DNA of 64,000 bases from Halomonas getboli (GTDB taxonomy: Bacteria > Pseudomonadota > Gammaproteobacteria > Pseudomonadales > Halomonadaceae): assembly GCF_023094245.1 (NCBI RefSeq), contig NZ_JALMEW010000003.1, positions 1 through 64,000 on the forward strand. Direction: 5' to 3'. Below are positions 15,989 through 22,963 of this stretch, piece after piece. The notes under the pieces are model-generated. The model did not search any database. It saw nothing but the letters and a program-made list of their open reading frames with translations, and had not been told where the DNA came from. The first letter of the stretch is position 1. Each line of letters opens with the position of its first letter. Made by a program: the position numbers and the translations under genes.

Positions 15989-16064
<76 letters not shown>

Positions 16065-18811: not shown

Positions 18812-19279
18812 TTATCTTCTTAGATAGTCTTTTATTATGTCATTGCAAGAGGTCGCTCTGTGAGAAAACCCATCGTTATTCGGGTTTTGCCAAAAAAGCA
18901 ACTCACAGCTTTTTCCATCTAAATCGGAAATCATTCGCCGAGTATTTGGTTCCCCAAGTATGGCTATAGCCTTGCGCCTCGACATCCCTTCTACAAGATA
19001 GCCACCAGCATAAGCCCTAGCCTCAAGGTGGGGTTGAAGCGGGTTAGCAAGCTGCTCCATGATAATGGCTGAGACATCTGGCGGTGGGCGTCTGCCATCA
19101 CCACCCATTGTCGAGAGATTACCGAGGTCGGGCATCTGGCCAGGTCCTGAAGCTCCTGCCCCTGCACATGGGCGATCCTGGTATCGGATATCGCCTCCAA
19201 CCTCGCACTTATAGACTTGGGCACTGGCAGAAAAGGGCAGCAGGGCAGCGACGAACAGCAGCAAGGCGGGAGCGATCAT
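18812..19279 (-). CDS. Exported DUF4124-like protein, paralog 1
   Basis: This 155-residue protein has a signal peptide (MIAPALLLFVAALLPFSASA), then YKCEVGGDIRYQDRPC (the DUF4124 pattern of two Cys around a Tyr-Gln). A C-terminal YLVEGMSRRKAIAILGEPNTRR resembles BamE/OmlA-type repeats. Start chosen at 19279: GGAG lies seven bases before it, while frame-open residues upstream overlap the promoter. A second copy at 19940-20425 shares the promoter, leader and signal peptide almost exactly but diverges in the mature part. The likely location is periplasm or cell surface. The function is unknown. Confidence 0.8.
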   Translation of the reverse strand: MIAPALLLFVAALLPFSASAQVYKCEVGGDIRYQDRPCAGAGASGPGQMPDLGNLSTMGGDGRRPPPDVSAIIMEQLANPLQPHLEARAYAGGYLVEGMSRRKAIAILGEPNTRRMISDLDGKSCELLFWQNPNNDGFSHRATSCNDIIKDYLRR

Positions 19280-19298
19280 CCCTGATCTCCAAGCAGAC

Positions 19299-19326
19299 TC
19301 TATAGACCTAAGAAAATCTAGCACAA
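19299..19326 (-). promoter_or_regulatory. Putative promoter of DUF4124-like paralog 1
   Basis: On the minus strand TTGTGC (19321-19326), a 16-base spacer and TATAGA (19299-19304) precede the gene by about 20 bases. The same block recurs before paralog 2, where the -10 reads TAGAGA. Confidence 0.55.
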
Positions 19327-19445: not shown

Positions 19446-19570
19446 ACCGGCATTGATAGAATCTTGTCATCGGTAGGTCCCGGCCCGATTCCTGGTGCCA
19501 GTACCATTTAAAGCGCTTTGCAAGCATCTTCTTGCGAGCGACATCCAAACCGCCAGCTGGCGGTTTTTTT
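19446..19570 (+). pseudogene. Decayed tRNA-Thr copy with its terminator
   Basis: Bases 19446-19506 align with tRNA-Thr(TGT) of 15989-16064: ACCGGCAT, a deleted D-arm, CTTGTCATC for the anticodon arm, GGTAGGTCCCGG, CGATTCCTGGTGCC and ACCATTT. The acceptor stem no longer pairs. Downstream, GAGCGACAT and the hairpin AAACCGCC-AGCT-GGCGGTTT with seven T residues (19547-19570) copy the functional gene's terminator. It is either the displaced original tRNA end or a duplicated attachment site of a tRNA-Thr-targeting element. Confidence 0.8.
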
Positions 19571-19632
19571 GTGCGTGTCCACTTTGTTTCCACCCTCCTT
19601 TCTGTCCCATAGCGTCCATTCGTGACGAGGTG

Positions 19633-19654
19633 AAAAAAGCCCCCCGAGGGAGGC
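19633..19654 (-). terminator. Minus-strand terminator after the integrase relic
   Basis: On the minus strand GCCTCC/GGGGGC closes a short loop and is followed by TTTTTT. It lies about 120 bases beyond the stop of the recombinase relic and may be its original terminator. Confidence 0.5.
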
Positions 19655-19775
19655 AAAAGTGCCGTCTCAAGCAGGGAAGCGAAAGACGGCTCACGCAATT
19701 TATCGCACTCGCGAAAAAAGATGTATCCCAATTGCTTGATTTGGCACAGTTTCAGCTAACTCTTTGCTTCTGTCT

Positions 19776-19919
19776 CTATAACCGAGGTCCGGCGACTGGA
19801 TTCATTTTGGCCGCCTCCTCAAGATGGTCGGGTACGACGTGGGCATCGGGCATGGTCATCGAGTGATGACCGAGAATTCGTTGCAGCACCAGGATTTGGC
19901 CGTCGTTCTTCACGCCCGA
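19776..19919 (-). pseudogene. Tyrosine recombinase (integrase), C-terminal relic
   Basis: One minus-strand frame reads VKNDGQILVLQRILGHHSM, then TMPDAHVVPDHLEEAAKMN and PVAGPRL before TAG at 19776. This matches the end of phage-type integrases (usual form: LQ..LGHSSI.MT.RYAHLAPDHL..A...NPL). Two residues are missing and the catalytic Tyr position is lost (MPDAH for M-x-RYAH). An in-frame stop lies just upstream, and nothing of the rest remains. Beside the tRNA-Thr copy, it marks the edge of a former mobile element. Confidence 0.8.
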
Positions 19920-19939: not shown

Positions 19940-20425
19940 TTATCTCCCGGTGACCAGGCCGTTGCAGATGATCGCCCGATAGCGCCGCTTGTCCAGGAAC
20001 CTCGGGTTTATCCACACCCAGTTGTGGCATTTTTCGCCGTCCGAGTTCACAAAATCGCTGCCGTAGTCTGGCTCGCCAAGCATGGCGTAGACCTGCCCCT
20101 TGGTCATGCCGGGAATCAGCTCGCCGCGGGCCTGGGCGCGCACGCGATCGTTGCGCTCCGTCACGCTGGACCGATAGCCCGCAGACGAGGTGGATCGATT
20201 TGCCTGGGGCCGAGGCTGCGGCGGGGGTGGCAAGACCCGTCGCAGCGCACGAAGATCCGGCGACTGATAGATCATGGCGTTGCCGCGGGTCATGGGCACC
20301 TGAACGCCCGGGCACGCGTCTTCCTGGTACAGCGTGTCGTTGCCGATCTGACACTTATGGATATCGGCGTGGGCAGACAACGGCAGCAGGACGGCGACGA
20401 ACAGCAGCAAGGTGGGAGCGATCAT
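19940..20425 (-). CDS. Exported DUF4124-like protein, paralog 2
   Basis: This 161-residue protein has the signal peptide MIAPTLLLFVAVLLPLSAHA, then IHKCQIGNDTLYQEDACPG (DUF4124 pattern), a Pro/Arg-rich middle and a C-terminal LIPGMTKGQVYAMLGEPDYG, which resembles BamE/OmlA repeats. A final Cys pair lies in EKCHNWVW and AIICNG. The start at 20425 has GGAG seven bases upstream, exactly as in paralog 1. Identity of the two genes is high from about 90 bases around the start and low afterwards. The function is unknown. Confidence 0.8.
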   Translation of the reverse strand: MIAPTLLLFVAVLLPLSAHADIHKCQIGNDTLYQEDACPGVQVPMTRGNAMIYQSPDLRALRRVLPPPPQPRPQANRSTSSAGYRSSVTERNDRVRAQARGELIPGMTKGQVYAMLGEPDYGSDFVNSDGEKCHNWVWINPRFLDKRRYRAIICNGLVTGR

Positions 20426-20522
20426 CCCTGATCTCCATGAGGACTCTCTATTCCTAAGAAAATCTAGCACAAGCCCCGAAGAGCGGTAGGCCATCATCCG
20501 CCCGCATTGGCTTGTTTTCTGT

Positions 20523-20597
20523 AGCCATAAAAAAGCCCGTCGGGGCAGACGGGCAATAAGGGACTTACAGGACAGGGAACTCAGTAAGTGTGATAAC
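20523..20597 (-). ncRNA. Candidate structured RNA / repeat element, copy A
   Basis: Read on the minus strand, this 75-base unit has CTTAC-(15-base loop with GAGTTCCC)-GTAAG, a short linker, then the intrinsic terminator GCCCGTC/GACGGGC with TTTTTT and ATGGC. A second copy (22679-22756) keeps the GAGTTCCC hairpin, spacing and terminator while the stem bases differ. That pattern suggests a small RNA or a conserved 3'-end element. Copy A lies downstream of the GGDEF gene and could also serve as its terminator. Confidence 0.5.
20528..20554 (-). terminator. Terminator downstream of the GGDEF gene
   Basis: On the minus strand GCCCGTC/GACGGGC with a 6-base loop is followed by six T residues. It lies about 145 bases past the GGDEF stop. 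Confidence 0.75.
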
Positions 20598-20698
20598 TAT
20601 ATCGCCGCGGCCCGGTGCTGCCCATCCAAGCATCTGTATGACCCCGTTAGGCTGGGCCTATCGGCTCGCCGATGCCCGTCTTGATCGGGCCGGCGGCC

Positions 20699-22405
20699 CT
20701 AGAGGCTGCTGACCCGGTCGCGCCCGCTGCGCTTGGCGGTATACAGGGCGGTGTCGGCGCGCTTGAACAGGTTCGAGAAAGACTCGCCCGCGATGTGCTC
20801 GCTGACGCCGCCGCTGACGGTGACGGCGAGACGCAGGCCGTCCTCGAGCGTGACGCTGCCGGCGCTCACGTGCTCGCGTACCCGCTCCATGGCCGAGGCC
20901 GCTTCCGAGGCGCGCGTGCCGCGCATCACTACCACGAATTCCTCGCCACCGGTGCGCGCCACCATGTCGCCCTCGCGCAGGCATTCGGACACCCGGCCGC
21001 TCAGCCACTGGAGCACGGCGTCGCCGGTATCGTGGCCGTGCTGGTCGTTGACCCGCTTGAAGTGATCGATGTCGAGCACGGCCAGTGAGAAGGGCTCGTC
21101 GCGGGTGTCGTGGGCATGGATCAGCGCTGCGACTTGCTGGTCCAGGTAGGCGCGATTGGGCAGGCCGGTCAGGTAGTCGCGCAGCGCCTTGTCGGCCATG
21201 CGGTCGAGCTCCTGTCGCACCTGCTCGATCTCGGCCTCGTTGGTGATCACGCGCTCCACCGCATCGGCGATCAGCCGCACCAGCTCGATCTCCATCTGGT
21301 CGAAGGGTTCCTGGCGCGGCTGGGCGCTGGAGAAGTTGAGCGTGCCCCAGACCTCGCCGTTGAGGCGCAGCGGGGTGCCGATATAGCTCTCCAGGCCGAA
21401 CGTCTGGTAGCAGGGATGGCCGCTGATGCGCGGATCCTTGCCGGCCTCGGTGGTGTGGAACACGCCTTCGGCGTCCAGCATCAGCCGGCAGTAGGTGTCG
21501 CCCAGCGCGAAGGTGTCGTCCGGTGAGAGGTCGGCGACCTCCGAGGTGGCCCACTTGATGATGTACTGCTCGTCGATGATGCGGCTGACCAGGCCGATAT
21601 CCAGCGACAGGTAGGCGAGCGCATCGCGCAGCAGCTGGTCGATGATCTCGTCGCTGTCGATGTCGGTGCGGTTCACGCCGCTGTGCACGTCGCGCAGCAG
21701 CTGGATCATGGCGCGGTATTCGGAGATGTCCTGGATGATGGCATATAAGCCGACCACCTCGCCGTCCAGGAAGTCGGGGGTGTAGTGCACCTTGAAGTAG
21801 CAGGTGCGGCCGTCCGCGAGGGTGATCCGGTCCTCGTAGGTGACCTCCTCGCCCGCCAGGGCCCGCTGCAGGCGCGGTTGAACTCGCTCGAAGGAGGCGG
21901 GCTCCATCACCGAGGCGACCGGCTGGCCGTACAGCGCCTCACGGTCGATGCCGATGAAGTCCATGTAGGCCTGGTTGTTGAGGCGGAAGCGCAGGTCCTG
22001 GTCGACGTAGGCCACCAGGATCGGCAGCTGATCGGCGAGCCGGCCGACGATGCCCTGGTCGACCTTCAGCGCCGCGGTCAGCTTGATCACGAAGCTGCCG
22101 TCGGCGAGGCCGTAGTAGCTGCCGGCGCCGTCCTCGAAGCCCCAGGTCTCGCCGGGGCGGATCTCGCTCCGTGCCAGGCTCTCGGCCACGGCGCCGCCGA
22201 GCTGGGCGCGGATGTCCCTGAGCTCGCTCAGTGCCATGCCGATCAGCGCCGACGGCTCCCTGCCGACCAGCGTCTGGGTATCGCCCAAGGCGTCAAGGAT
22301 GCGCTGCTCGCGCGAAATATGCAGATAGGCGGAATGCGAGAGGCTCAGGACCTCTTCCCACCAGGCCGGTTGTGTCACGACACCACATCTCCCTTGTCGG
22401 TGCAT
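20699..22405 (-). CDS. Diguanylate cyclase with PAS and GAF domains
   Basis: This 568-residue soluble signalling protein makes c-di-GMP. Domains: an N-terminal segment of unclear type (1-110), PAS (about 115-235, ending in YAIIQDISEYRAM), GAF (about 245-395, with SYIGTPLRLNGEVWGTLNF) and GGDEF (about 405-568). The active-site loop is GGEEF, preceded by five residues and REGD, the RxxD inhibitory site, so product feedback is expected. No transmembrane segment is seen. A GTG at 22378 with GGGAG ten bases upstream is an alternative start; the ATG at 22405 has only a weak site. Confidence 0.9.
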   Translation of the reverse strand: MHRQGRCGVVTQPAWWEEVLSLSHSAYLHISREQRILDALGDTQTLVGREPSALIGMALSELRDIRAQLGGAVAESLARSEIRPGETWGFEDGAGSYYGLADGSFVIKLTAALKVDQGIVGRLADQLPILVAYVDQDLRFRLNNQAYMDFIGIDREALYGQPVASVMEPASFERVQPRLQRALAGEEVTYEDRITLADGRTCYFKVHYTPDFLDGEVVGLYAIIQDISEYRAMIQLLRDVHSGVNRTDIDSDEIIDQLLRDALAYLSLDIGLVSRIIDEQYIIKWATSEVADLSPDDTFALGDTYCRLMLDAEGVFHTTEAGKDPRISGHPCYQTFGLESYIGTPLRLNGEVWGTLNFSSAQPRQEPFDQMEIELVRLIADAVERVITNEAEIEQVRQELDRMADKALRDYLTGLPNRAYLDQQVAALIHAHDTRDEPFSLAVLDIDHFKRVNDQHGHDTGDAVLQWLSGRVSECLREGDMVARTGGEEFVVVMRGTRASEAASAMERVREHVSAGSVTLEDGLRLAVTVSGGVSEHIAGESFSNLFKRADTALYTAKRSGRDRVSSL

Positions 22406-22550
22406 TCGATCTTCTCTGACCTACTCTGCTCCTGTCGCGCGCTAACGTCTATTGGAGAGCCTTCAACAGCGTCGTGGCCGGTCCATCTCGAGGCCTCGAT
22501 GCGGCGATATCGCCTGCCGGGAGCCGCAGTGCGCAACCGACGCCAGACGC

Positions 22551-22578
22551 AAAAAAGCCCGCCCCGGAAGGGGCGGGC
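22551..22578 (-). terminator. Minus-strand intrinsic terminator
   Basis: On the minus strand the 9-bp GC stem GCCCGCCCC/GGGGCGGGC around TTCC is followed by six T residues. It lies 146 bases upstream of the GGDEF start and would shield that gene from read-through, or end a small RNA starting to its right. Confidence 0.75.
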
Positions 22579-22678
22579 CAACCTCGCATCTGGTGTGATG
22601 CCTGCTCTGCCTGATCACGAGCATGCCTCGTGAGGCTTCGTATTCTGGCCTCGCCTTCTTGCAGCGAGATGACGATGA

Positions 22679-22756
22679 GCCATAAAAGAGACCCGCCGGG
22701 ACTGGGCGGGTCTTGAAAGGCTTACCAAGCGGGGAACTCAAGTAAGCAAGGTAATG
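22679..22756 (-). ncRNA. Candidate structured RNA / repeat element, copy B
   Basis: On the minus strand it shows CTTAC-(loop with GAGTTCCCC)-GTAAG, then the stem GACCCGCC/GGCGGGTC followed by TCTTTTATGGC. It is about 78 bases and collinear with copy A at 20523-20597. The compensating stem differences argue for RNA structure. Its upstream promoter, if any, would lie near 22780-22830. Confidence 0.5.
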
Positions 22757-22963
22757 ATGCCCGTTCGCATTGATTCTCATATCAGGAAGTACGGATGTTT
22801 TAGGGCGCTGTTCATCCTCAAGGCGGGGCGGCCACGGTCGAGGGGATCGGGATGTCCGGAGAGCGTGTGCATCGCACCGGTGTGCCTACCGGCCGTCGCT
22901 GGCCTGAACGCGCTGCCGCGATCTCGCATCGCGTTGATACACTTGCCGGGAGACATGGGTGTT

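Follow-up and report, generated by a model that had tools for sequence, protein, structure and literature searches.

Short hairpin-terminator units flanking a diguanylate cyclase gene in Halomonas getboli look like members of a previously uncatalogued, prophage-associated family of very short RNA genes

The DNA analysed here is a stretch of 64,000 nucleotides (the window) from Halomonas getboli, whose genome is G000 in the comparisons below. It contains a tRNA-Thr gene, for which ARAGORN gave the anticodon UGU in 11 relative loci, and a gene for a PAS-GAF-GGDEF protein that is flanked by two short minus-strand units (Table 1). On that strand each unit reads CTTAC..GAGTTCCC..GTAAG, followed by a linker, then a GC-rich hairpin and its T-run, and finally ATGGC. 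Copy 1 comprises ACTTAC-TGAGTTCCCTGTCCT-GTAAGT, the linker, a terminator stem GCCCGTC/GACGGGC and six T, while copy 2 comprises GCTTAC-TTGAGTTCCCCGCTTG-GTAAGC, the linker, a stem around ACCCGCC/GGCGGGT and a T-run broken by a C. The first-pass annotation had picked out both units, with their shared 5' hairpin and their ATGGC ending, and the letters bear this out; the ATGGC is also common to the copy in the relative G077 and is not found in the copies of the relative G061. On its minus strand the window also encodes, at 18812-19324 and 19940-20497, two small proteins that resemble each other and have a signal-like N-terminus. Neither gave a Pfam match, and a relative of the two, with a similar upstream region, lies in an island of G023 (L075:14503-14976).

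Table 1 Features of the window that bear on the hairpin-terminator units
Feature	Position	Strand	Basis or remark
tRNA-Thr, integration site	15989..16064	+	Rfam tRNA match 15989-16061; intact 3' end at 16063
Diverged tRNA-Thr 3' end (att relic), downstream of copy 3	19482..19505	-	5 mismatches in 24
Copy 3, diverged: stem GCCGTC/GACGGC, loop with UUCCC, terminator	19631..19691	-	24.9 bits with R1, outside training set
C-terminal relic of phage-type integrase, upstream of copy 3	19794..19907	-	tblastn E 1e-10, 67.5% identity
Copy 1: C-rich-loop 5' hairpin, then linker and intrinsic terminator	20527..20591	-	88.2 bits with R1 (training member)
Conserved upstream (promoter-like) region of copy 1	20592..20664	-	three-genome alignment; conservation falls further upstream
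-10-like hexamer TATAGT of copy 1	20596..20601	-	ends six bases before first stem base
PAS-GAF-GGDEF protein (diguanylate cyclase), between copies 1 and 2	20699..22405	-	Pfam
Distinct conserved hairpin-hairpin-terminator, between copy 2 and cyclase gene	22549..22640	-	fold z -4.57
Copy 2: architecture as copy 1	22683..22749	-	77.0 bits with R1 (training member); conserved in G061
-10-like hexamer CATCAT of copy 2, weak (4/6)	22754..22759	-	offset as in copy 1

Copies 1 and 2 are both more stable than dinucleotide shuffles (fold z of -3.00 and -3.05), and their local alignment score of 27 compares with a maximum of 21 among 5000 dinucleotide shuffles and a best score of 17 at T-run sites elsewhere in the window. 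A BLAST of copy 1 against its own genome recovered copy 1 alone. The pattern CTTAC-N0-2-GAGTTCCC-N5-8-GTAAG matched exactly two places in that genome, copies 1 and 2, with no third exact copy. Among 90 same-genus genomes it was found in three, the genome of the window included (two matches there, two in G061 and one in G077), and its reversed control gave no match in the same 90. Over these five clear copies from three genomes, both sides change in three of 13 pairs and pairing is kept in 65 of 65 cells, so that the earlier remark that the terminator stems differ in their bases and still pair is upheld as a matter of compensated changes. Looser or wider pattern searches yielded mostly candidates that we rejected: an inexact search of 38 genomes gave 13 matches, none of which except copy 2 had the hairpin-terminator layout on inspection, and a scan of a genome collection gave 10 stretches, one from Halomonas and nine from distant MAGs that were taken as chance. 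A 25-base pattern had no match in IMG/VR.

A covariance model, R1, was built from the five clear copies and searched in 250 family genomes. A sixth row, from G023, was misaligned by MAFFT and kept out of R1; its sequence was regained by the model search. As some match at E<=1 was obtained in 237 of the 250 genomes, and those inspected were mostly other terminators, R1 E-values alone prove little and the location of a hit is its informative part. Local R1 searches, which supplied the members of the second model below, returned 27 hits with E<=0.05 from 26 sources, and several of these hits were other RNAs. In G023, a genome of 4.05 Mb with no sequence in the R1 training set, eight matches were found at E<=1, and among the matches listed at least five lie within 19 kb (C1:243,006 to 261,945). 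The top match in G072, at 50 bits, sits in the same region, the tRNA-Thr locus. Copy 3 of the window has a fold z of -5.13. The first-pass annotation had missed this copy, the integrase relic and tRNA-Thr fragment next to it, and the further hairpin-terminator at 22549-22640.

A second model, R2, was built on 15 members (three from the window, four from G061, one each from G077 and G072, and six from G023), these four relatives carrying one to six clear copies each. In the R2 alignment 98.5% of cells are paired, against at most 48.2% in slid controls, and both sides change in seven of 13 pairs, against a shuffle mean of 3.4; this alignment had been fitted to the structure, so the covariation figures lean in its favour. 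When the 15 members are folded singly, every minimum-energy fold has two hairpins and leaves UCCC unpaired (15 of 15), with 5' stems that vary between CTTAC/GTAAG, GCCGTC/GACGGC and GGCTT/AAGCC. Across 275 family genomes, R2 scores above 50 bits were reached by the 15 training members and by no other sequence, and these hits fall in one region per genome. The next scores, at 43.8 and below, are mixed with other RNAs, and weaker hits elsewhere are not separable from ordinary terminators by score. One of these, in G022 (43.4 bits), sits at the same tRNA-Thr locus; part of its UCCC is paired in the fold, and it is counted as a 16th member in the hexamer tally below. The covariance-model search of the genome and its relatives that the first-pass annotation had recommended was thus productive of further copies and of covariation. 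Together with a -10-like hexamer at a fixed distance, these support its suggestion of a small family of short RNAs, and the units are more than two ordinary terminators.

Two other RNA-like elements came up in these searches. One, in another genus, g24 (among L039-L064, about 35-44 bits), was rejected as a member: it has a different hairpin, and its likeness to the family is limited to the linker and terminator. It consists of GGGCTGCAGTGAGCCAAGCCC plus a terminator, is conserved in many genomes (L039, L041-L051, L054, L057-L064 and others) and had no Rfam match in two loci tested. The other combines a hairpin whose loop contains UCCC (TGTCTGCATCCCCTGCATGACA and variants) with a terminator, and occurs in several Halomonas genomes (L089, L090, L097, L099, L104, L106). 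It resembles the family in its C-rich loop and terminator, but lies elsewhere in the genome than family members, and two loci tested gave no Rfam match.

The sequence just upstream of the units was compared across members. At the fixed offset seen for copies 1 and 2, the mean match to TATAAT is 3.36 of 6 in 11 non-orthologous representatives, versus 1.57 at other offsets, and a mean of 3.36 was reached by none of 2000 shuffles at any of 70 offsets; the mean over all 16 members is 3.62. The copy 1 hexamer is TATAGT or TACAGT across three genomes, and one G023 copy has a perfect TATAAT. Three of the 16 members match at two positions or fewer, among them copy 3, which has one of six at the fixed offset and four of six one base further upstream. 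No -35 consensus was seen among the representatives. Conservation of copy 1 (G061, G077 and the window) runs from about 75 bases upstream of CTTAC to the T-run, and that of copy 2 (the window and G061) from the -10 region to the T-run. A Fur box considered at copy 2 was dropped, as the stretch is not conserved in G061. Since a -10-like hexamer precedes the stem and conservation stops at the T-run, the units look like sRNA genes of about 60 bases.

The genomic setting of the family is a tRNA-Thr integration site. In the window, G061, G072 and G023 the strong members are found near mutY-yggX-tRNA-Phe-Gln-Thr, and the G077 copy, near a contig end, adjoins the cyclase gene. The gene yggX is present in 87 of 90 genomes; in 20 further yggX-tRNA loci, some of which end at contig ends, R2 gave four matches at E<=0.1, of which only that in G022 is strong. 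At the G023 locus there is an integrative element whose integrase is of the P2/186 type (Pfam Int_N and Phage_integrase) and shares about 50% identity with the phage 186 enzyme. We regard this integrative element as inovirus-like because it carries a Zot-family gene, and here the hairpin-terminator elements lie between integrase and tRNA-Thr. Downstream of other G023 elements there are copies of the tRNA-Thr 3' end (L075:15203 and L025:4045), and upstream of these elements tblastn finds integrase relics (L025 4730-4533, E 6e-27; L075 15771-15730, a weak match with E 0.022). Counting copy 3, the order integrase-element-tRNA is seen in five modules of three genomes (one in the window, one in G022 and three in G023), one of the five resting on the weak relic match. 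A third kind of hairpin-terminator, preceded by TATAGAGTTCTCCC, stands right after the integrase end in G023 at L075:2821-2888 and L075:15641-15709.

This arrangement gives some weight to a plainer explanation, that the units are intrinsic terminators with an extra upstream hairpin, marking the 3' ends of integrase or neighbouring genes and multiplied by repeated insertion. They would then halt transcription heading into the convergent tRNA operon; the elements do lie 3' of integrase genes and convergent with that operon, and in G016 and G095 an integrase relic is followed by another hairpin-terminator, whose UUCCC is paired in the fold (G089 has a similar sequence). A plain terminator would, however, need neither a -10-like hexamer at a fixed offset nor a UCCC loop that is kept while the stems change, nor the two copies that follow one another inside a single G023 module. 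We consider this explanation rather unlikely. More doubtful still is that the units are DNA-level phage parts, such as hairpins for single-strand replication or packaging in an inovirus-like element, kept by chance after decay. The Zot-family gene in the G023 element and the position of the units at the prophage end would suit such a role, whereas the T-run on one strand and the fixed hexamer spacing would not, nor would the distribution of the elements: the integrase occurs at 11 places in seven of 90 genomes, and an element stands beside two of them and is absent at nine, while G092 has a decayed integrase at tRNA-Thr without an element. Moreover, copies 1 and 2 are conserved; no phage gene was detected next to either, and a tblastn with the integrase gave no relic there. 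For this reason a mobile origin of copies 1 and 2 can be proposed only from their kinship and neighbourhood; five modules place the gene within or beside an integrative element, none of them formed by copy 1 or 2. R2 searched beside 80 integrase loci of IMG/VR gave five weak matches of 18-24 bits. The first-pass annotation had alternatively imagined a mobile terminator element. That idea holds in part, as some units do sit in integrase-element-tRNA modules, but there is no sign that the unit itself transposes, and copies scattered over the genome, as for a dispersed mobile terminator or repeat, were not found among hits above 50 bits.

The position of copies 1 and 2 on both sides of the cyclase gene, in the window and in G061, together with a G-rich AAGGGAGA in the start region of that gene, could suggest a regulator dedicated to the cyclase. 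Cyclase homologues (E<=1e-100) were found at 14 places in 13 of 90 genomes, and elements stand beside four of these (the window, G061, G077:C11 and G023). At the other 10 places, three of which end at contig ends, there is no element at E<=0.05; among them is G048, where the cyclase gene is next to tRNA-Thr, and G072 conversely has an element and no cyclase gene. A dedicated regulator is therefore improbable. Judging from gene order, the cyclase is a bystander and the flanking position reflects a shared neighbourhood, in line with the earlier caution that placement beside a c-di-GMP gene may be chance. Upstream of the gene stands a separate hairpin-hairpin-terminator (identity 90% in G061 and 88% in G077), which runs TCACGAG..CTCGTGA, then GCAT-CACACCAG-ATGC, then the terminator; it may be a further sRNA or serve as a leader for the cyclase gene. 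In G077 the TTCCC motif is absent from the 700 bases upstream of its counterpart.

If the loops pair with G-rich ribosome-binding sites, target genes might be recognised by their starts. The sequence GGGAACTC occurs within 14 bases before ATG 14, 15 and 14 times in G000, G061 and G077, against 11, 9 and 13 in reversed controls, an excess that is only slight, and one of the G000 matches is copy 2 itself. Most of the 29 match loci inspected open short frames; two starts belong to recognised families, a chemoreceptor and a 5-formyltetrahydrofolate cyclo-ligase. The chemoreceptor, with three PAS stretches and an MCP signalling domain, has a start reading GCAGGGGGAACTC-ATG in G000 and G061, and for copies 1 and 2 paired with these starts the predicted duplex energies are -22.0 to -24.1 kcal/mol, compared with a best of -21.0 over 40 window starts. 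Among 14 genomes tried, the gene was found in G000, G061, G072 and G023, and not in G077, which has copy 1, or in G022. The G072 site is GCAGGGGGCTCTC-ATG, with no compensating change that mirrors the G072 loop; its own pair is predicted at -19.2, and pairs of other members with it at -14.6 to -23.3. This start is the best target candidate from the modelled duplexes, chosen post hoc where we estimate about one match before some gene per genome by chance. The cyclo-ligase of G061 has GGGAACTC 8 bases before ATG, with near-identical matches in G000 and G077, and by duplex energy its start takes first rank for copy 1 and fifth for copy 2.

Integrase mRNA was considered as a target and set aside, as its GGGAA ribosome-binding site is also present in five of six element-free relatives compared. 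In its favour, GGGAA occurs in none of 40 window starts; the cognate duplex energies are mixed, ranking 1 (G022) and 13 and 34 (G023) of 40 window starts. A scheme that would build on such pairing is RNA-based control of integration at tRNA-Thr, in which sRNAs beside the attachment site would silence integrase or replication genes of their own element and of incoming relatives. Hosts would then keep old copies as immunity, and copies 1 and 2, recruited for host chemotaxis, would tune it through the chemoreceptor start. We think this scheme has little chance of being right.

The reading that we favour, with a probability of about one half, is that the units are prophage-borne sibling sRNA genes of about 60-65 bases whose UCCC loops pair with G-rich ribosome-binding sites. 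Sequence evidence supports the existence of the family, its structure and its conservation, along with the promoter-like hexamer and the integrase-element-tRNA order of five modules. The two units would then be two of three sibling genes in the window. Transcription would begin at the first stem base or immediately ahead of it, with the -10-like box six bases upstream directing RNA polymerase, and the RNA would consist of the 5' hairpin, a short linker and the intrinsic terminator. Its loop would act as the seed, and by analogy with LhrC and other UCCC-loop sRNAs it should block translation of the paired messages. The genes would have arrived with inovirus-like integrative elements that insert at tRNA-Thr through a P2/186-type integrase; serial insertion and decay would have left several copies, of which copies 1 and 2 were presumably kept by selection.

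At gathering score, Rfam 15 recovered only rRNA and tRNA in the window and, in seven relative loci of which two carry elements, nothing but tRNA; the best sub-threshold match over copy 1 was anti-hemB, at 15.9 bits against a cut-off of 49.5. Literature searches, with most subscription journals outside their scope, gave no title naming a native Halomonas sRNA among the matches listed and no paper on these elements for Halomonas with tRNA-Thr and integrase. The elements look like a previously uncatalogued family of very short RNA genes in Halomonas, prophage-associated siblings with an anti-SD-like loop. Halomonas is a genus used in industry, and base-pairing sRNAs seem little described in it. 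Should the units be transcribed, they would make up a compact sRNA family, present in several copies and linked to integrative elements at a single tRNA gene, and would show how phage-borne sRNAs accumulate and are retained at an integration hot spot.

Several known systems resemble the units. Cuckoo RNAs and AbcR are anti-SD-like sRNAs with C-rich loops, and a C-rich loop as presumed seed is common to them, to RsaE, SprD and FsrA, and to the Halomonas units. RsaE, SprD and FsrA are presented as C-rich-loop sRNAs in the LhrC literature (PMC4132741), where UCCC motifs of LhrC and other sRNAs are described as binding G-rich sites before start codons. The LhrC family of Listeria monocytogenes shares with the units several homologous sRNAs per genome, a hairpin and terminator, and UCCC motifs (PMC4132741); several copies with UCCC in single-stranded loops are likewise found in the window (three), G061 (four) and G023 (six). 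LhrC differs in that it belongs to another phylum, has three CU-rich sites per RNA where the Halomonas units have one shared loop, and has proven targets where those of the units are candidates (PMC4132741). The likeness drawn here is one of description. The Pas sRNAs of E. coli prophages, which multiply by repeated acquisition, are also prophage-borne and present in several copies that diverged after integration (PMC13192938). Their likeness to the Halomonas units is again one of description. As reported for Pas, the copies lie in prophages far apart, the closest pair 22 kb from each other, whereas the Halomonas copies lie within a few kilobases at one tRNA gene (PMC13192938).
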